A DNA stretch of 64,000 bases from Erythrobacter sp. (lineage in GTDB: Bacteria; Pseudomonadota; Alphaproteobacteria; Sphingomonadales; Sphingomonadaceae), in contig DAICXZ010000030.1 of the NCBI GenBank assembly GCA_027311945.1, positions 62,001-126,000 of the forward strand. The letters run 5' to 3'. Shown here piece by piece: positions 9,581 through 19,845 of this stretch (the stretch's first letter is position 1; each line of letters begins with the position of its first letter). A model generated the notes under the pieces. The model saw only the letters and a list, made by a program, of their open reading frames with translations. It searched no databases and had not been told where the DNA came from. The position numbers and the translations under genes were made by a program.

Positions 9581-12500
9581 TCAGGGAACGGACACCCCGA
9601 ACACGGCGGAGCCGTCAATCTGCTTATCGAAGGTGGTGTTTCCGAACGTATAGACCACGCCCGCATAGGTGCCGCCGTCTCCCGCCAGAAAACCGTTGAT
9701 CGTTGCGCGGCAATCGCCGCTGCCCGCGCAGGCCGGGCCGCTGCCCTGCGCCAGCACCGGCTGGTTATACTCGGTGAAGAAGCGCATGTTGCCGGTGTCG
9801 AGTGCCATTCCGCCAGCCATTGGATCGGCCACACCGCCCGGCGTGTTGATGGCATAACTGTTGCCGCCAATCGCCACATCGAACTCCACGCCGACCTTGG
9901 GCGTGCTGCCAAAGGCCACGGCCAGCTCGCCCGAGAAGCTGCCCGGTGCCAGCGATCCATCGCGGATCGTTGGCGCGGTCGATCCGATGAGGGCATATTG
10001 CACGGTGCCCGAGGTGGGGAGGTTCGTGGCCGGATCGCCCGCCACGACATGCCAGCCGCCATTGGCGGGCAATTCGATGCCGTCCTGGTCGGCGTAAAAG
10101 CGCCCGCCCGTGGTGCCGCCCGCCCAGCGCGTCCAGCCGATCACGCCCGCCACGCTGCCGCTGTCGTGCTGGGTGTTGTTGCCGATGGTGGGGCGCTCGT
10201 CTTCGGTGGTCGAGGAATTGAGTTCCCAGACATAGGCGAGCGGTGCGCCGGTCGTGGTGTCGTAGGTCACCCGCGAATCCTCGCGGCTGTCGATCCCGAC
10301 CGTGGAAGACGAATAGATCACGATCTGGTCGGTCTCCTCGGTGCCGGTGGGTGGCGGCACCACCTCGCCGGGATCGTAGGTCCCGCCGAAAGCGGCCGCG
10401 CCGCCAATCAGCGGGAGGTCCGTTGACGTGTCACGGACCAGGTAGGCCAGCGAAGCATAGGTGCCCCCGTCGCCGCCGAGGCGGCTTGAGAAGGTCGCTC
10501 CGCAGGTTGCCGACGATGCGCATGCTGCGCCCGACCCCGTCATGGTAACAGGTGCATTGCCGTAGAAATTGCCGACCGAAGACCCAATGACGCTGGGCGC
10601 TGCGACGCCGCCCTCGGTGGCGAAGGCGTAGCTCGCATCGCTCATCGTCACCGTCGCTTCGAGACCCAGCATGGGTGAGCTGCCCAGCGTCACCGCCATC
10701 TGCCCGGCGAAGGTGCCCGGTGCGCTGCGGCCGTCCTGATAGGTCGGCTGGGTGGCGCCGAGCAGGGTGTAGTCAATCCGCCCGGAGGCAGGCAGGTTCT
10801 CGATCACCGGGATCAGCGCATAGCCAAAGCCGCTGTCTGGTCCGTACAGGCTGCCGAACGAACCGGTGTCGCTTTCGATGCTGCCGCCGTTGAACCGGCC
10901 GACCTGCCAGTTGGCATCGCCGGCAAGATCGGCCACGGCCAGGTTGCCGCGGCGGATATAGTCGATCTGGTCGTTGACTGTAACGCCATAGGCGCGCACC
11001 AACCCGCGGCTATCGGTGACGATGGGGAGATAGGCGATCGAAGTGACGGCCGCTTGCTTACGGTTCGCGCCGCCAGTGTCGACATAGCTCAACATCCCGA
11101 TGTCATCGGCGAAGGGTGCGGTAAGCGAGCCGCTTGCAACGCCCGCGTCAACGCCCGTTTCCAGCCCGGCCAGATCGGTCGAACCGAATATCGCGGCCCC
11201 GAACACGTCGGTGCCCATGTTGCCGCTCAGGGTATAGAACGTGGAGGCGATGGTGCGGAAATCGTCGGTCAGCTGGCCGAACAGGCGCAGGCTGCACGTT
11301 GCGCCAGCCGGGCAGACCGCGCCTTCACCTGTAAGCGGGGCGACCCCGAACAGGCCCGGACGGCTTATCTGCACCCCCGATGTCGCGACCGCGTCCAGCC
11401 CGCCGGTGGTGCTGAACGTATAGACGCTGTCCATGGTGAGCGAGCCTTCCATGGCGAACTTGGGCGAGATGCCGAAGTCGACGGCCAGCTCAGCCGTGAA
11501 TGTGCCCTCGCTCAGCGACCCGTCGAGGGCCACGACCGGGGAGCTTTCGATGAGCTGGTAAGTGGCGCTGCCAGCCGTTGGCAGGAACAGCGCCGGGTCG
11601 CTCACCGCAACCACAAACGCGCTTTGCCCTGGGGCGATCGTGCGTTCGGTGGTCGCCGAGGTGAGCGTGCCTTCTCCGTAACGGGTGATGATCGCATCGT
11701 CGTTGCCGAACTGCGAGATCAGCGTTGCAGTGCCGAGGGAGAAGACATCGTTGACCGTACTCACCGTGTTATCGGAAATTTCCGTGAACCCGCCATCGGC
11801 GCGCCTTGCGGCAGGGCCGGAGATCGAACTCGTGAGGTGGAGTACCGTGTTGGCTCCGCTGGTGCCGGGCACGGCGACAATTGCCGAAACCCTTGTCAGA
11901 TCGAAATTCGGCCCGACCTCGTAATTGCCGCCGCCGCTGCTGCCGCCACCGCTGCTAAGCGGATCGCCCTTGGCAAAGCCCGCCGTGCCGAGCACTTCGG
12001 CCCCGCCCGCATCCTTGGCGATATAGGAGATCGCCAGTTCCGCAGCCTCATCGCCCGATATGTAACCGCGGATTTCGCCGGTGCATCCGCCCGAGCCCTG
12101 ACAAGCAGCGCCGGTGCCGATCACCTCGATCAGGCCGCCGGTGGTTTGCAGCACTTCGCCGAAGAAGAAGCCCGGTGCCAGATCTTCGCGCAGGGCAATG
12201 CCGTTCTGCGCGGTCTGGGCGATGCCGCCGATGGTTTGCAGGGTATAGCTGCGATCGGCGAAATCGGTTTTCAGTTCCGCACCGACGCGGGTGGTCGAAC
12301 CGAAGCTGATCGCCGCCTTGGCCACGCTGAGCGAGCCGGCCTCGCCGCCGGTGAGCGTCGGGTTGGTGCCGCCGACGAAATCGTATTCGATGAGCCCCGT
12401 GGCGGGCATGTTCGTCGCCATCGGACCGGCAATGACGTGGATACCGTTGGCCCCGAGGTCGAGTTCGGTGTTCGCCTGCGCATAGGCGGTGCCATTGACC

Positions 12501-14029
12501 CAGCGGCCCCACGCGACACCTCCATCGCTGATGCGCCCGGCTTCGATCAGCTCCGCCTCGCCGATAGCGGCGCGGGTGGTGCCAAAGTTGAAGAACAACG
12601 GTGCGCCGGTCGCCTCGTCATAGACGACATTGGCGCGGCTGCGGTCGATCTGCCCGTTGAACGGGGCGAGTTCGGTCTTGCTGCCGCGCAGGGCCATGAA
12701 CTGGTTGCTCGCCAGCGTGCCTGCGGGAGTGGGGAATTCCGGCGGCGGGGGCAATTGCTCGAACTCGTCGATGTTGCCCCCGTTCTGCAGGAAGGTGAGG
12801 TAGGCTCTGAGGAACTGCGCCTGCCCGGTCAGCAGCGTATCGAACAGGCCGCGCGAGGAGAGCGCTTCGAGATAGGCCTGAAGCGCCTGTGCGTTGAGCC
12901 CGCCGAACTCGCTAGGCACCCCGCCCGAGAGCACGAAACTGGCATAGGCCTGTACCGCTGCGACATAGGCGGCGATGGCGTCTTCGCTCAGCAGGCTGGC
13001 AGGCGCGACGAACTCGCTCGGCACGCCGCCGCTGCGCAAATAACCGAGATAGGCCGAAAGCAGGTTCTGCTGCGCCGCGCCGATCCGGCCAAGCTGCCCG
13101 GTGAGCTGGAGATAGTCGATATAGCTGTTCAGCTGCGACAGGTCCGCCCCGGTATAGTCGCTGGCAAAGCCGCCGTTGGCGAGCAAGGTCAGATACTGGC
13201 TGACGAGGCTGGCATAGGCGCTCTGGAATTCGCCGATCTGGCCGTTGTTGGCGAGATACTGGAGGTACGCGTTGACCAGTAGGGGGCTTGCGCCCTCGAA
13301 GCTGGCGCCGCCGCCCAGCGCCGCCGCAAGCCTGTCCGAATAGGCGAGCAGCCGGGCGACATCGCCGCTCGGCAAACGCGCCACCGCAGGGTTGGCGAGG
13401 TATGCTTCGACACCGCGTGCCGCCGCCACCACATCGCCCGATGCGCCTACCCCGGCGAGACCTTCGCCAAGCGTCACCGCAAGGCCGTTCATGGCGGCCT
13501 GCGCGATGGTCTGGCGGGTGGTGGCGAAGGGTGATCTGCGGGTGCTGCCGTTGGGGCTGGGCTGGGCGGCATTGGCGACCACGCGCGAGCTGCTCGAACC
13601 CACGGCCGCAGCCCAGTTCTGACCTGGCCGATAGGTGCGGGTGGCTGTGCCGGTCGTCACCTGCATCGTGCCGCCCATCACGTTGCCGGAGAGCTGGCCG
13701 TCTCTCACCGCCAGCGAGCCGGAGCCGGTCACCGTGGCCTCTGCTCCGCCCGGCAGGCGCAGCACGACCCCCGAGCCTTCCGCCCCGGCGACGGTCACGC
13801 CGCCATTGGCCAAGGTGATCTCCTCACCATCGAGCGAGAACTCGGCTGGCCCCACAATCGAAACCACCGCGCCTGAATCCATGCGGATCTGCGCGACCCC
13901 GCCTTCGGCGACGGACTGGCTGCTGGCGGTGTTTCCGCTGCTGGTGAACAGGATGTCGGCTGCCTGCGAGGGAGCCGAAGCGACGGCGAGCGTGGCTACG
14001 CCCAGAAATAGTGCTTTGCGCATGTTCAA
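9581..14029 (-). CDS. Giant secreted FecR-domain protein with helical repeats and four tandem beta-rich (TbpB-like?) modules
   Basis: Signal peptide MNMRKALFLGVATLAVASAPSQAA; FecR-like segment GGVAQIRMDSGAVVSIVGPAEFSLDGEEITL; short AYLxYLxxGG repeats; four divergent ~220-250 aa modules ending GDGGTYA...(A/G)xFG. Confidence 0.82.
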   Translation of the reverse strand: MNMRKALFLGVATLAVASAPSQAADILFTSSGNTASSQSVAEGGVAQIRMDSGAVVSIVGPAEFSLDGEEITLANGGVTVAGAEGSGVVLRLPGGAEATVTGSGSLAVRDGQLSGNVMGGTMQVTTGTATRTYRPGQNWAAAVGSSSSRVVANAAQPSPNGSTRRSPFATTRQTIAQAAMNGLAVTLGEGLAGVGASGDVVAAARGVEAYLANPAVARLPSGDVARLLAYSDRLAAALGGGASFEGASPLLVNAYLQYLANNGQIGEFQSAYASLVSQYLTLLANGGFASDYTGADLSQLNSYIDYLQLTGQLGRIGAAQQNLLSAYLGYLRSGGVPSEFVAPASLLSEDAIAAYVAAVQAYASFVLSGGVPSEFGGLNAQALQAYLEALSSRGLFDTLLTGQAQFLRAYLTFLQNGGNIDEFEQLPPPPEFPTPAGTLASNQFMALRGSKTELAPFNGQIDRSRANVVYDEATGAPLFFNFGTTRAAIGEAELIEAGRISDGGVAWGRWVNGTAYAQANTELDLGANGIHVIAGPMATNMPATGLIEYDFVGGTNPTLTGGEAGSLSVAKAAISFGSTTRVGAELKTDFADRSYTLQTIGGIAQTAQNGIALREDLAPGFFFGEVLQTTGGLIEVIGTGAACQGSGGCTGEIRGYISGDEAAELAISYIAKDAGGAEVLGTAGFAKGDPLSSGGGSSGGGNYEVGPNFDLTRVSAIVAVPGTSGANTVLHLTSSISGPAARRADGGFTEISDNTVSTVNDVFSLGTATLISQFGNDDAIITRYGEGTLTSATTERTIAPGQSAFVVAVSDPALFLPTAGSATYQLIESSPVVALDGSLSEGTFTAELAVDFGISPKFAMEGSLTMDSVYTFSTTGGLDAVATSGVQISRPGLFGVAPLTGEGAVCPAGATCSLRLFGQLTDDFRTIASTFYTLSGNMGTDVFGAAIFGSTDLAGLETGVDAGVASGSLTAPFADDIGMLSYVDTGGANRKQAAVTSIAYLPIVTDSRGLVRAYGVTVNDQIDYIRRGNLAVADLAGDANWQVGRFNGGSIESDTGSFGSLYGPDSGFGYALIPVIENLPASGRIDYTLLGATQPTYQDGRSAPGTFAGQMAVTLGSSPMLGLEATVTMSDASYAFATEGGVAAPSVIGSSVGNFYGNAPVTMTGSGAACASSATCGATFSSRLGGDGGTYASLAYLVRDTSTDLPLIGGAAAFGGTYDPGEVVPPPTGTEETDQIVIYSSSTVGIDSREDSRVTYDTTTGAPLAYVWELNSSTTEDERPTIGNNTQHDSGSVAGVIGWTRWAGGTTGGRFYADQDGIELPANGGWHVVAGDPATNLPTSGTVQYALIGSTAPTIRDGSLAPGSFSGELAVAFGSTPKVGVEFDVAIGGNSYAINTPGGVADPMAGGMALDTGNMRFFTEYNQPVLAQGSGPACAGSGDCRATINGFLAGDGGTYAGVVYTFGNTTFDKQIDGSAVFGVSVP

Positions 14030-14038
14030 GTATCCCTC

Positions 14039-15352
14039 TTAGAATTCCGCGCGAATGCCGAAGCTCGCGGTGAAGCGCTCGTAATCGTAGAGCGCGATGT
14101 TCGACCAATTGCGGGTGTAGGTGACGCGTGGGCGGGCATAGACATTGCCCGTCAGCCGGAACTTGAGGCCGATGTTCGCGTCGACCTGCTCGTCCTCACG
14201 CGCGGTGAGGAACAGCGGATCGTCGGCGCCGTAGCCGCGGATCTGGCCGCCGATCCCGCCGACCACGGCCAGACGCTCGCCCGCCGGGAGTTCGAACGCG
14301 AGGTTGGCGCGGCCATAGCTGTAGGACAGGTGATCGCCTGCCGATCGGCGGGTCTCCTCCCGTCCGCCTGCTGCGCTGAGCACGAAGGTGCGCGCGGCAT
14401 AGGTCACACCCGCGCCATACCGGTTGGAATCGCGCAAGGGATCGTTGTCGAAGTTCTGGCGGAAGAACTCGCCCGAGACCGACAGGGCGCGCCCGCCTTC
14501 GAGCCGGTGTGTATATTGCCCGATTACCCCGAACGCTTGCCGGAAGCTGTTACCGCCGAGCCAGAACTGCTGCCCCTGCAACGAGAGCGAGACGACATCG
14601 CGGCTGGCCAGCGTATGCGCGACCCCGGCGGTGCCGGTGGCAGCGCTCTGGTCGAACCCGGCTTCCAGGTTCTCGCGGATATTGGCGAGCAGCGAACCGA
14701 ACAGGCGCGTCTGGCGTGAGACCCCGCTCACTGCCGAGACCCCGCCAACCGCCTCCAGATAGGCGGCGTCGGTTGCCTGCGCGTTGGCGCCAAGCTGGCC
14801 GGGACCGAAGCCTGCAAACAGCGGGATCACGATGGAATCGAGATCGGTCGCACCGTTGACGTTGCTGTCGAAGCCCGCCGTCAGGTCGAGGAAGCCCGAA
14901 ACATTCGAGCCGCCGCCCGCGATCTGGCGGTCGTAGTTGCGCACGATCTGATCGAACCGCTGGCGCACCGGATCGGGCAGCGAGGGATCTTGCATCGCGG
15001 TATCGAATTCGGCCCGGGCGGTGTCGATATCGCCCGCCAGCGCATAGGCGCGCGCCAGTTCCGCGCGGGCCTGTGCATTGTCCGGCTGAACGGCGAGCAC
15101 ACGCTGGAGTGCGATGACCGCTTCGGCCGGGTGGCCACTGTCGGCCGCCGCAATGCCGAGAGCGAGATCGTAGTCGGCATCGCCCGCGCGGGTGGCTTGC
15201 AGCGGTATCAGCAGCGCGAAGGCCTCTTCCGAGCGGCCCGCCTGATGGAGCGCGAGGGCATTGGCGACGGCATCGTCGACCTCCGCCAGAGCCGGCCCCG
15301 CCGCGCAGACGAAGCCCGCGCAGGCAGTGGCAAACAGGACAGGTCTTAGCAT
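14039..15352 (-). CDS. TPR + C-terminal beta-barrel outer membrane protein, surface lipoprotein assembly modifier (SLAM/DUF560)-like
   Basis: Signal peptide, N-terminal TPRs (GHPAEAVIALQRVLAVQPDNAQARAELARAYALAGD), then alternating amphipathic strands ending ...FTASFGIRAEF (terminal aromatic). Confidence 0.75.
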   Translation of the reverse strand: MLRPVLFATACAGFVCAAGPALAEVDDAVANALALHQAGRSEEAFALLIPLQATRAGDADYDLALGIAAADSGHPAEAVIALQRVLAVQPDNAQARAELARAYALAGDIDTARAEFDTAMQDPSLPDPVRQRFDQIVRNYDRQIAGGGSNVSGFLDLTAGFDSNVNGATDLDSIVIPLFAGFGPGQLGANAQATDAAYLEAVGGVSAVSGVSRQTRLFGSLLANIRENLEAGFDQSAATGTAGVAHTLASRDVVSLSLQGQQFWLGGNSFRQAFGVIGQYTHRLEGGRALSVSGEFFRQNFDNDPLRDSNRYGAGVTYAARTFVLSAAGGREETRRSAGDHLSYSYGRANLAFELPAGERLAVVGGIGGQIRGYGADDPLFLTAREDEQVDANIGLKFRLTGNVYARPRVTYTRNWSNIALYDYERFTASFGIRAEF

Positions 15353-15422: not shown

Positions 15423-16766
15423 TTACGAAACCTGACGATGATTGCGTCGCGGCAGGATCAACTCGGCCAGCGCGCCCTTTTGACCATTGGCGAGGCTGAA
15501 GCTGCCGCCGTGCTGGCGAGCGACCGCGCGCACGATGCGCAGGCCGATGCCATGCCCGCCCAGCGTAGAGCGAGGGGACTGGTCGGCCATCGGCGCAAAG
15601 CCGGGCCCTTCGTCGGCCACGCGGATCACTGCCGCATCCTCGCGGCAGGCAAGTGCCACGCGGATCGCGGCGCCCTCGGGCGAGACCTTGAGCGCGTTGT
15701 CAAGCAGGTTCGCCACCGCGCGCACCACCAGCGAGGCGTTGCCTGTTGTCATGCATGGGCCAAGCTCACGCAGGATGCGCACATTGTGCTCTTCCTCGGC
15801 CACCGCTTCGTACAGTTCGATCGCATCTTCGAGCGCCTTGGCGACGTCGAACGGCTCGACCGACAGCGCGCCTTGCGTTTCGATCTCGCGCAGTTCGAGC
15901 AGGGCGTTGAAAGCTTCCATCAGCCGCGCCAGTTCCTCACTGGCGAGCCGCACCTCGGCGGCAGGGCGCGTATCGCCGAGCATATCCTCCAGCCGCGACA
16001 GCCGCGCCTGTACCCGTGCGAGCGGCGTGCGCAGGTCGTGCGCAAGGCCGTCGGCGGTGTCACGCAGGGCTTCGAGGCGGCGCTGCAATTCGTCGAGCAT
16101 GGCGTTCATATGGGTGGCCAGCGTGCCCAGTTCATCGTTGGTGGTGACCGGGTGGCGCGCGGTGACCTCGCCTTCCTCAACTCGTTCGCAGAGGGCGTTG
16201 AGCCGCGCGATCCTGCGGCTGATCGCGGCCCCGGTGATCCAGGCCACGAGGCCAGTGACGGCGACGATTACCGCCACGATCGCCGCGCCCCAGCGCCAGA
16301 AGGCCTGCGTCAGCGGCCCGGTCGAGGCAACACGGTAGGCGACCAGCACCGCGCTGCCGTCACCAAGGCTGCGGACCACCCCGGCATAGGCGGTGCCGCC
16401 TTTGCGGAAACTCACATAGCGGGGTGCGAGCGGGTCGAGATCGCTCGGCCAGCTTGCTGCTCGCGCCTGGGTGCCATGCACCGCAATGTAGCGCGCCTGA
16501 CCGGATTCGCGGGCCATCGCTCCCAGCTCCCCCAGCGCGGCGAGCGCCAACCCGGCCATTTCCGGGTCTTCGCCAAGGCCGGGCAGTTTCTGCGCCAGCT
16601 CGGCATATTCGCGCTCGGCATTCTCGGCGGCGCGCAGCTCGCGGGCGGTGGTGTCGATCCGCCACAGCACCAGCGTCACCAGCGCCACCGCCAGTGTGGT
16701 CGCCAGCGCCATGGTCAGCGCGGCGAGGATCGGAATGGGCACCTTGCGGGAGAGCGTGCGCTCCAT
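15423..16766 (-). CDS. Sensor histidine kinase (HAMP, HisKA, HATPase_c)
   Basis: H-box AHDLRTPLARVQARL; N-box VANLLDNALKVSP; G-boxes DEGPGF and LGGHGIGLRIVRAVARQHGG. Confidence 0.93.
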   Translation of the reverse strand: MERTLSRKVPIPILAALTMALATTLAVALVTLVLWRIDTTARELRAAENAEREYAELAQKLPGLGEDPEMAGLALAALGELGAMARESGQARYIAVHGTQARAASWPSDLDPLAPRYVSFRKGGTAYAGVVRSLGDGSAVLVAYRVASTGPLTQAFWRWGAAIVAVIVAVTGLVAWITGAAISRRIARLNALCERVEEGEVTARHPVTTNDELGTLATHMNAMLDELQRRLEALRDTADGLAHDLRTPLARVQARLSRLEDMLGDTRPAAEVRLASEELARLMEAFNALLELREIETQGALSVEPFDVAKALEDAIELYEAVAEEEHNVRILRELGPCMTTGNASLVVRAVANLLDNALKVSPEGAAIRVALACREDAAVIRVADEGPGFAPMADQSPRSTLGGHGIGLRIVRAVARQHGGSFSLANGQKGALAELILPRRNHRQVS

Positions 16767-16793
16767 CAGTTTCTGGCCATCAGTTCTTGGCCA

Positions 16794-17579
16794 TCAGCCT
16801 TGCTGGCTCAGGTCGCGCAGCATCAGGCCCTGGCTGCGGACCGAGAGGATCAGCGGGCGCAGCGCCTCGTCAAGCTCGCCGCTCGCCGCCTCCAGCTTCT
16901 TGCGCAGGCGCGAGACATGCACGTCGATGGTATTGGCCGCGTTCGAGGGCATGAAGTTGTAGTCCGACCAGCAGCGGCTCCACAGCATCGAACGGGTGAC
17001 GGGCAGGCCAGTGCTTTCGCCCAGCACCTGCAGGATCGCGTGCTCGCGCGGGGTGAGGTCAAGCGGCTGGCCGAACAACTGCGCCGACATCGCGCGCGAA
17101 TCGATCAGCAGGGGGCCGTTCTCGATCCGCTCGGCCTGTTCGGGCGTGGCCCAGCGCGCGCGGCGGCGGATCATCGCGGCAACACGCGCCAGCAGCTCGG
17201 TGTCGGAGACGGGCTTCACGATGTAGTCGTCCCCGCCTGCCGCGAGCCCTTCCACCTTCTGCCGCTCGGTGCCGAGAGCAGTGAGGAACAGGGCGGGGGC
17301 ATCGGCGGAAGGGCCGCCGCTTTCGCGGATGCGTTCAAGCGCGGAGACCCCGTCAAGGCCGGGCACCTGCCGGTCGAGGATCAGGACATCGTAAGCCTTC
17401 TCACGCGCCTGCGTCAGCGCGGCGGTGCCGCTCGAAACCACGTCCATATCGGCAAAGCCGTGGCGAGAAAGCGCCGAGGCGAGACTGCCCGCCAGCTCGG
17501 CCTCGTCTTCGAGCACGAGCGCCGAACACCCGGCAAACAGGCAGCGCAGGCGTTCGTCGAGAGCATCGTCGCTGATCAT
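16794..17579 (-). CDS. OmpR-family response regulator
   Basis: Receiver with LVLEDE, LILDRQVPGLDG, KPVSDTELLARV; C-terminal winged-helix LTPREHAILQVLGESTGLPVTRSMLWSRCW, HVSRLRKKLE. Confidence 0.93.
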   Translation of the reverse strand: MISDDALDERLRCLFAGCSALVLEDEAELAGSLASALSRHGFADMDVVSSGTAALTQAREKAYDVLILDRQVPGLDGVSALERIRESGGPSADAPALFLTALGTERQKVEGLAAGGDDYIVKPVSDTELLARVAAMIRRRARWATPEQAERIENGPLLIDSRAMSAQLFGQPLDLTPREHAILQVLGESTGLPVTRSMLWSRCWSDYNFMPSNAANTIDVHVSRLRKKLEAASGELDEALRPLILSVRSQGLMLRDLSQQG

Positions 17580-17680: not shown

Positions 17681-18370
17681 ATGGATATTGCGCGCAGACC
17701 GACATTCCCGCTGGCAAGGGCAATGTTTCTTGCCGCGCTGGGAATCGCCACGGGCGCTTGTGTCGCCGGGGACCGCTCGGCTCCGGTCGAGGCGTTTGCA
17801 GAATCTGGCAGCCCCGTGGCGCGCGCCGAGCTGGCGCTACGGCTGGCGAGCGAAGCGCGCCGCTCGCACGATGCCCGCGCGATGCTGGTGGCCGCGCGAA
17901 TGATGCTGACGAGCGGCACGCGTCCCGCCGTGCTCGAAGATGGTGCGCTGGTGGCCGATGTGGATGGAGACCCGGTCGCTCACGGCTGGGCGCGCGAGGC
18001 CATCGCACTGGCGGGCGATAATGCCACGCTTGTTGGCGAGGCCGAGCAGGTGCTCGCGATGCGTCCGCGCGGGGTGCTTCGCAGCAGCCTCGGCGGTGGC
18101 CCCTTGCGTTATGTGCGGCGGGTCTCGGCCAACGAAAGCGTGCGCTTCGACATCAACACCCAGCCGCAGGTGCCTGCGCGCCTCGCCGCGATTGGCGATG
18201 GCGATGCGCGGATCGGTCTGATGGTGAGCGCCGGAAAAGCGCGCATCTGCGACCAGCGCGCCCGCTCGACCCATTCGCTCTGCACCTGGCAGGCGGCGAG
18301 CGAGCGGCACGATGTCACGCTCATCAACGCGGGGCCGCTGGCCAGCGATGTGATGATCCTGTCGAACTAG
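17681..18370 (+). CDS. Small exported protein (putative lipoprotein), unknown function
   Basis: 229 aa; N-terminus MDIARRPTFPLARAMFLAALGIATGACVAGDRS; stop overlaps the convergent caspase stop (CTAG). Confidence 0.7.
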   Translation: MDIARRPTFPLARAMFLAALGIATGACVAGDRSAPVEAFAESGSPVARAELALRLASEARRSHDARAMLVAARMMLTSGTRPAVLEDGALVADVDGDPVAHGWAREAIALAGDNATLVGEAEQVLAMRPRGVLRSSLGGGPLRYVRRVSANESVRFDINTQPQVPARLAAIGDGDARIGLMVSAGKARICDQRARSTHSLCTWQAASERHDVTLINAGPLASDVMILSN

Positions 18371-19698
18371 TCGCCGACCGCGAATTCGATGATCGCCGCG
18401 CGCTCTGCTGCGGTATCGCCCTTGCGCCAGAACAGCAGCAGGCGGTCGGTCCCCGCCGGATAGGATGCGCCGGTGGCCGGATCGTGGTTGACGAAGGTGA
18501 AATCGAGATGTGCGGGCGAGCGGCCATCGAGATAGAGCCCGCCGATGGGCGAGAGGAGGGTGCGGAGGCCCGCGCTGTCCACATACCAGGCATCGACGAA
18601 GCCCGGCTCGGTCGCGGCAAGCGCGAGCATCACCGCATCGCAATGATCGAGGGGCAACCGCTGCGCCGGATCACGCAGTTGCGGCGGGCCTGCGGATTCG
18701 ATGTCGCACCCCGGCGCGGCGGCGGAATGGAGGTCGAGTGACCATTCGGGCAGTGCCATGGCCCGCGCGCTCGCCACCAGATCGGGCAGCTCTCCAGCAA
18801 AGAAGAACGCGCTTTCGATTGCGCCGCCCGCCTCGCTGGCGGGGCCGGGCAAGGCCGAGCGGGCTTGCTGGCGGCGCTGCTCGCGCACCAGCTCCACGAA
18901 GTCGGCGGGCGATGCGGCGAGGGCAGGGGCGAGGCTGCGCGTGAATAGCCCACCCTCGGGCGTGTCCCATGCGGCATCGCCGGTCGGCCCGGCGGCGAGC
19001 GTTACGAGCCGTCCGCTGCCTGCTGGCATGTCGTCCTCCACCCACGCGGCATCGCGGCGCTGTGCCGAGCGCAAGGTCCGGTTGGGCACACCGAGCACGG
19101 TGGGTGAGAGATTGCGCACCGCCATATGCTCACCCCCGCGCATCGCGCCGCCCGAGGCGCAGCTGTCGATGGCGAGGAACACGTCGGCCCCGCGCTCGCG
19201 CATGGCGCGCACGGCGGCGGCGAGTTCGTCGTCGACCAGCGCGCCGGGCAGCGCGCCATCGCGCCACTCGCCCGCATCGGCCAGCAGCAGCACCTCATCC
19301 TCGCCATCGGCTTCGTCGCGCGGGCCGGTATCGGGGATGCGGCTGCCGTGGGCGGAAAAATAGAGCACGATGCGCTGGCCCGGCATGGCGCTGTTGGTGA
19401 GCCGGGTGAGTTCTTCGCGGACTCGCGCCAGCGTCGCCGCTGCGCCTTCGAGCCCCACGGTTTGTGCTTCCGCGCCCACGAAGCCCCTGAACGCGCCGCG
19501 CATAGCCACCGCATCGGCGCGCGCTCCGGCAAGAGCATAGGGCGCCAGCGCCGGATCGGTGAACTCCGACACGGCGACGATCAGCCCCGCAACCGGGCGC
19601 GACGCCTCTTCCGCGCGCGCACCGTGGGCGGCGAGCACGATAATCGCCGCGAGCGAGCATAGGGAGAGGCGAGCGGCCACTATCACGCCTGCCGGCAT
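18367..19698 (-). CDS. Secreted caspase-family (p20 / peptidase C14-like) protein
   Basis: Likely start at MPAGVIVAARLS (track extends to 19737). Signal peptide; dyad motifs LYFSAHGSR (His) and FLAIDSCASGGAMRG (Cys). Confidence 0.86.
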   Translation of the reverse strand: MPAGVIVAARLSLCSLAAIIVLAAHGARAEEASRPVAGLIVAVSEFTDPALAPYALAGARADAVAMRGAFRGFVGAEAQTVGLEGAAATLARVREELTRLTNSAMPGQRIVLYFSAHGSRIPDTGPRDEADGEDEVLLLADAGEWRDGALPGALVDDELAAAVRAMRERGADVFLAIDSCASGGAMRGGEHMAVRNLSPTVLGVPNRTLRSAQRRDAAWVEDDMPAGSGRLVTLAAGPTGDAAWDTPEGGLFTRSLAPALAASPADFVELVREQRRQQARSALPGPASEAGGAIESAFFFAGELPDLVASARAMALPEWSLDLHSAAAPGCDIESAGPPQLRDPAQRLPLDHCDAVMLALAATEPGFVDAWYVDSAGLRTLLSPIGGLYLDGRSPAHLDFTFVNHDPATGASYPAGTDRLLLFWRKGDTAAERAAIIEFAVGD

Positions 19699-19845
19699 AG
19701 CACGGACGTGGCCTAAAGGCATGGCCCACAAGCACAATGTCAGGCTTCGTCAGGGCTTGTGGCCTTGCCGCTCCACCGCCACGCAAAGGCGCACAGGCCT
19801 GACAATCATATTGCATTGCAGCACCAAGGGGCGTCTAATCCCGCC

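Follow-up and report, generated by a model that had tools for sequence, protein, structure and literature searches.

Translational coupling of adjacent genes by termination-reinitiation at TGATG and ATGA stop-start overlaps is described as well established (Huber 2019, PMC6728339; 2023, PMC10666635; PMC12548453). The TGATG overlaps reported in two of these sources are single, join two genes through a -1 nt junction, and are presumed to work by reinitiation without a strong Shine-Dalgarno sequence (PMC6728339, PMC10666635). The chain of TGATG motifs that we describe here, located between a response regulator gene and a histidine kinase gene, shares the junction type and the presumed mode of reinitiation, but threads two extra four-codon ORFs serially through the 27-nt gap from regulator to kinase.

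The nearest precedent for such a chain is the mycobacterial interspersed repetitive unit (MIRU), a repeat whose unit measures tens of bases and which was reportedly first described, by Supply in 1997, in the senX3-regX3 operon. The source cited here also places its first description in a two-component operon, and gives it a small internal ORF coupled to the neighbouring gene, an arrangement proposed to make the repeat compatible with continued coupling of that gene (PMC12548453). A repeat with a small coupled ORF in a two-component intergenic region is what MIRU and chain have in common; MIRUs, unlike the chain, are longer, dispersed, apparently mobile and coupled at -4 nt (PMC12548453). The chain has a unit of 14 bp encoding four codons, is coupled by TGATG at -1 nt, and is born locally at each junction, with unrelated sequences. 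We found a small ORF overlapping the start and stop of its neighbours, via TGATG (-1) rather than ATGA (-4). No dispersed, sequence-related unit was found, the unit being near chance frequency in the window and the nine free bases (N9) of other chains being mostly unrelated to it. As for the number of units among species, a close ortholog, in Aurantiacibacter xanthus, has none. The regulator/kinase site resembles a miniature MIRU, and is not a MIRU.

Bicistronic designs and leader mini-ORFs lie at 5′ ends and have their own initiation site. The mini-ORFs of the chain, unlike those of bicistronic design, are intergenic and lack a Shine-Dalgarno sequence; the likeness resides in a short ORF that serves solely to deliver ribosomes downstream (PMC4833913, PMC12548453). 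A limited literature search, covering titles and abstract openings, returned no description of serial four-codon TGATG mini-ORFs between genes. Coupling at TGATG being known, the serial mini-ORF chain is a variant of it.

On the minus strand of the window (the whole stretch of 64,000 nucleotides that was analysed), positions 16796-16764 read TGATGGCCAAGAAC TGATGGCCAGAAAC TGATG, within the context ...CAGCAAGGC TGATGGCCAAGAAC TGATGGCCAGAAAC TGATGGAGCGC. Features are collected in Table 1.

Table 1. Features of the regulator/kinase locus, and TGATG junctions elsewhere in the family
Feature	Location	Strand	Basis
OmpR-type response regulator gene, 261 aa (receiver and winged-helix domains); the chain opens with its stop TGA (16796-16794)	16794..17579	-	ORF, Pfam PF00072, PF00486
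14-bp unit 1, TGATGGCCAAGAAC	16783..16796	-	direct reading, TRF
Mini-ORF 1, ATG GCC AAG AAC TGA (MAKN, stop)	16780..16794	-	direct reading, links computed
14-bp unit 2, TGATGGCCAGAAAC, 12/14 identical to unit 1	16769..16782	-	direct reading, TRF
Mini-ORF 2, ATG GCC AGA AAC TGA (MARN, stop)	16766..16780	-	direct reading, links computed
Third TGATG, holding the kinase start ATG (16766-16764)	16764..16768	-	reading, ORF list
Histidine kinase gene, 447 aa, ATG start, HAMP + HisKA + HATPase_c	15423..16766	-	ORF, Pfam
Spanning 14/14 chain, regulator-kinase	16764-16796	-	
Spanning 14/14 chain, slt-moaB	genome G351		
Spanning 14/14 chain, slt-moaB; upstream gene stops on second TGATG	genome G072		
Spanning 14/14 chain, M19 dipeptidase-ribF, three units	genome G325 (L084)		
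Spanning 14/14 chain, GDSL esterase-thpR (LigT family)	genome G082		
Spanning 14/14 chain, glycosyltransferase (GT2)-methyltransferase	genome G401		
Spanning 14/14 chain, transaldolase-xerC	genome G303		
Single-unit 14-bp junction, aldehyde dehydrogenase family, proA-like - nadD-like			
Single-unit 14-bp junction, uppS-cdsA-like			
Single-unit 14-bp junction, beta-eliminating lyase - EamA transporter			
Single-unit 14-bp junction, APH-DUF6285			
Single-unit 14-bp junction, slt-moaB			
Single-unit 13-bp junction, mreC-mreD, relay-breaking spacing	L238		

The order along the chain is regulator stop TGATG, MAKN, TGATG, MARN, and the TGATG with the kinase ATG. The ATG of mini-ORF 1 overlaps the regulator TGA, its TGA overlaps the next ATG, and the TGA of mini-ORF 2 overlaps the kinase ATG, so that stop and start overlap by one base at all three links, as read and as computed. 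Counted from the regulator TGA, the three ATGs stand at +2, +16 and +30 and fall in three frames, the kinase being again in the frame of the regulator; its ATG is the earliest in-frame start past the regulator TGA. The sequence-only reading had given exactly this anatomy, two four-codon mini-ORFs between regulator stop and kinase start, each ATG in a different frame and each mini-ORF ending on the next TGATG. It was also right that the chain is frame-neutral to copy number, because the unit length is of the form 3k+2 and holds no internal stop. The regulator TGA is the sole in-frame stop between the two ORFs, and readthrough would yield a fusion of about 718 aa.

Pfam domains (Response_reg and Trans_reg_C in the regulator) confirm that both flanking ORFs are real genes, and a receiver with a DNA-binding domain beside HisKA and HATPase_c makes them a two-component operon. 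Upstream of this operon lies a gene for a caspase-domain (Peptidase_C14) protein (18370-19737, minus strand); downstream, beyond the kinase and likewise on the minus strand, come a gene for a TPR protein (14039-15352) and an ORF of 1482 aa in which similar blocks recur (9581-14029).

Tandem Repeats Finder (TRF) calls a 14-bp array at the junction, with a score of 56. The pattern TGATGN9TGATG occurs twice in the window where 0.14 is expected, and this excess, together with the identity of the units at 12 of 14 positions, rules out a chance meeting of three TGATG. Over the whole genome, 25 rows of TGATG triplets with gaps of 0-30 were obtained, of which two are linked chains, both at 16764-16796; the second differs from the first only by one more Met codon, taken from the regulator. 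When up to 2 mismatches were allowed, the unit pattern gave 5 matches in the window against 1.03 expected, which is near chance, and two of the five are the regulator/kinase site itself. A tandem-duplicated segment that bears TGATG, has a length of 3k+2 and lacks an internal stop forms a chain automatically; for a duplication of a TGATG-bearing segment, the phase on its own has a chance of roughly 1 in 3.

Orthologous junctions were then compared. Among 40 genus genomes, a kinase match at E<=1e-40 was found in two, the genome of the window itself and A. xanthus, whose regulator and kinase are 97% and 90% identical. Its junction reads TGA GCGAGAGCCG ATG, a plain 10-nt spacer with the kinase start at +13, and neither unit nor mini-ORF is present in it (TGAGCGAGAGCCGATGG). 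In the family, 9 of 397 genomes have the kinase at the same threshold, again with the window's own counted. At seven of the eight distant ortholog junctions the start overlaps the stop by 4 nt (ATGA, TTGA or GTGA), several of these seven having later candidate starts as well, and at the eighth (L041) the start is at +9; the 14-bp repeat is found in none of the eight. Regulator-kinase gene order is retained in all nine orthologous loci read, and units are present in none of the nine junctions, which leads us to reject conservation of the chain at this operon. Orthologous junctions without the repeat had been named beforehand, in the sequence-only reading, as one half of what would speak against it, and this half is what we observed. 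Absent as it is from the orthologs, the repeat is a tandem duplication of recent date, and the near identity of the A. xanthus proteins, which come without any unit, implies that units turn over fast. Judged from these sequences, regulator/kinase coupling appears common in the family, and the repeat local and recent.

We next considered how ribosomes may reach the kinase start. With a 16S tail sequence that we take to be the correct one, the best Shine-Dalgarno duplex at the kinase ATG has an energy of -1.8 kcal/mol, against a median of -2.6 at random positions. The absence of a separate Shine-Dalgarno sequence at this ATG is in line with the sequence-only reading, and an independent ribosome-binding site for the kinase was rejected, pairing there being not above background. 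The duplex at the A. xanthus kinase start has -4.5 kcal/mol, and the final starts of other chains range from -4.1 to +0.4 kcal/mol, most of them without Shine-Dalgarno-like pairing. RNA structure at the junction is nothing special (z-score -0.26). In two-reporter work with E. coli, a gap of +14 is reported to cost 40-80% of reinitiation and one of +38 almost all of it, with effects specific to the gene pair, and in H. volcanii a gap of 22-23 nt abolished reinitiation; in both organisms almost no coupled reinitiation is left at gaps of about 20 nt, and for coupling the upstream gene need contribute no more than its last 15 nt (PMC10666635). Taken with these reporter data, a 27-nt gap before a start that has no ribosome-binding site of its own would mean poor coupling, unless the overlapping ATGs pass the ribosomes on. 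The missing Shine-Dalgarno pairing makes it likely that kinase translation depends on regulator translation.

The pattern TGATG-N9-TGATG-N9-TGATG was searched in 397 family genomes and found at 12 distinct sites in 12 genomes; a reversed-letter control gave none, but it is a weak control, as GTAGT may differ from TGATG in frequency. By ORF context, 7 of the 12 sites run exactly from the stop of one gene to the start of the next (Table 1). Five do not (L080, L081, L082, L083 and L089, the last left out of the spanning count for its uncertain small ORFs). The gene families at the junctions were checked by Pfam (10 proteins) and tblastn; thpR, xerC, ribF, slt and moaB are names attached to Pfam families. 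Between units, 2 to 6 of the nine free bases match in the six other 14-bp junction chains, against 7 of 9 in the window, and their N9 are mostly unrelated in sequence to the window unit. As the search demanded TGATG in each unit, its conservation in diverged units comes partly from the selection of sites. In the dipeptidase-ribF chain, one unit, TGATGGCCAGAACC, has 13 of the 14 letters of window unit 2, the genes being unrelated; the likeness may be due to chance or to a shared preference. In-phase 14-bp chains recur in the family at other junctions, fitted exactly between stop and start, and this supports the first reading of the locus.

A relay needs a spacing of 3k+2, and relay-compatible spacings were compared with relay-breaking ones by allowing both gaps to be 8 or 9, then 5 or 6, in the same 397 genomes. 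Identical sequences were collapsed to one site each, which concerned one 13/14 site (five rows), L110 (four rows, three of them without locus, counted once) and one 11/10 site (three rows, L129-131). With gaps of 8 or 9, spanning was seen at 7 of 12 sites for 14/14, 0 of 5 for 13/13, and 0 of 10 for 13/14 or 14/13, that is 7/12 versus 0/15 for 14/14 against relay-breaking spacing (Fisher p 0.0009). With gaps of 5 or 6, one of eight 11/11 sites was spanning (L132, genes assessed by eye) and none of 18 mixed sites, no 10/10 site being found. Both sets pooled give 8/20 versus 0/33 (Fisher p 0.00014); for equal-period arrays alone the comparison, 8/20 versus 0/5, is not significant (p 0.14).

Single units were examined with TGATGGN{7,8}TGATGG in 129 genomes; with 115 further stretches read for context, 149 distinct sites were classified among the matches listed. 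Of these listed matches, 12 sites of 14 bp and 2 of 13 bp passed the length filter. Seven of the 14-bp sites were dropped as their upstream frame was not coding-like (L188, L207, L225, L231, L256, L286 and L320, four of which share an ExbD-like start), and the 13-bp site L198 was dropped for want of Pfam support. Among the matches listed, 5 of 102 sites of 14 bp and 1 of 47 of 13 bp were junctions (Table 1), a difference that in absolute number points the same way as the triplets and is not significant. An rmuC gene (L108) is likewise preceded by a junction with a perfect 13-bp tandem duplication, in relay-breaking phase; the first ATG of the duplication opens an 8-codon ORF whose end lies 11 nt beyond the rmuC start. 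Relay-breaking spacings are rarer at junctions, and, as this site and the mreC-mreD junction show, not forbidden.

The slt-moaB junction suggests how a chain may arise. Two units are present in G351, none in its nearest relative G284, where the overlap is plain, and one in G072. A plain TGATG overlap was found in 13 of 39 moaB loci (30 + 9) among the matches listed, and is, on sequence grounds, a form from which a chain can grow. In the loci L140-L178, the stop and start of this conserved gene pair overlap by several bases at one extreme and are separated by long gaps at the other, with plain TGATG and the +16 and +30 chains in between; the range makes a natural series for the evolution of coupling. 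Arrays were encountered away from gene starts too. In G005, an acyl-CoA synthetase/ATP-grasp gene (DALMLVD, stop) carries at its 3′ end a 14-bp array with five TGATG (L078:2481-2543); no gene starts where the array ends, and its in-phase mini-ORFs have no obvious purpose. Arrays past the 3′ ends of a PhoD-family gene (L080) and of a TauD gene (L139) likewise have no gene start at their end. Slippage can consequently build such chains without a relay target. The units of 3′-end arrays are near-identical (G005, L080), unlike the mostly diverged units of junctions. All 3′-end arrays found are in the 3k+2 phase, and some of the preference for this phase may come from mutation, through pairing of an in-frame NTG-ATG with TGA-TG at the stop; in 6 of the 7 14/14 junction chains, which begin at the stop itself, this route is not visible.

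The explanation that we hold to be somewhat probable is that of a young, slippage-born duplication at a coupled junction, with kinase coupling kept by relay reinitiation through the mini-ORFs. Slippage would have tandem-duplicated a short segment at the translationally coupled regulator/kinase junction. Ribosomes ending the regulator at TGATG would then start again at the ATG overlapping the stop, translate four codons as far as the next TGATG and, after one more round, arrive at a kinase ATG that has no Shine-Dalgarno sequence of its own. The duplication would survive because a length of 3k+2 without internal stop lets misplaced initiation hand the ribosome on; this handing-on would keep the kinase coupled over the 27-nt gap, and the units would thereby be tolerable. 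Of all this, the sequences show the anatomy, the orthologs without repeat, the missing Shine-Dalgarno sequence and the in-phase 14-bp chains at other junctions; that ribosomes initiate at the mini-ORF ATGs and are relayed, and that the amount of kinase changes in any way, is inferred. An explanation that we regard as rather unlikely is that the duplication is a neutral remnant of slippage without consequence, the kinase ATG being reached by ribosomes that scan over a short range or initiate independently. The 3′-end arrays that lead to no gene start, the nine orthologous junctions without chain, and the automatic linking of mini-ORFs by any TGATG-initial unit of 3k+2, as a by-product, are all in line with it. 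It does not sit well with the exact stop-to-start span of 7 of the 12 14/14 chains, against none of the 15 relay-breaking triplets, or with the lack of Shine-Dalgarno sequence at the kinase start, and direct reinitiation over about 27 nt was poor in the reporter pairs reported (PMC10666635).

The initial proposal had been that of a selected stoichiometry regulator, in which the number of units sets the kinase:regulator ratio as a strain-variable, tunable switch. A kinase is usually wanted below its regulator, which counts for this proposal, every added reinitiation step should lose some ribosomes, and the number of units at slt-moaB varies among relatives (0, 1 and 2). We nevertheless find it unsupported and improbable, as the products of slt-moaB, transaldolase-xerC and dipeptidase-ribF are not partners needing a set ratio, and orthologous two-component operons lack the chain. 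A readthrough element, giving a fused regulator-kinase protein by occasional readthrough of the single TGA that separates the two ORFs in frame, is more improbable still, since neither A. xanthus, with its start at +13, nor most of the other orthologs have the kinase in the frame of the regulator. Relay reinitiation across a recent duplication is the reading that we retain: the chain is a real feature of local origin, and the relay is plausible and recurrently supported.

A wider statement, which we offer tentatively and would not yet lean on, is that serial TGATG chains form a recurrent, phase-selected junction element of the family, 14-bp units persisting only if they relay, such that the genomes record a multi-step relay by which gaps beyond the range of reinitiation stay coupled. 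If the relay is true, termination-reinitiation coupling can pass stepwise via four-codon ORFs, and so bridge gaps where direct reinitiation largely fails in reporters. The junctions with 0, 1, 2 and 3 units (slt-moaB, regulator-kinase and ribF) would then offer a ready natural series in which to measure how much is lost at each step, and gene-finders would have to reckon with translation of short tandem repeats at junctions.
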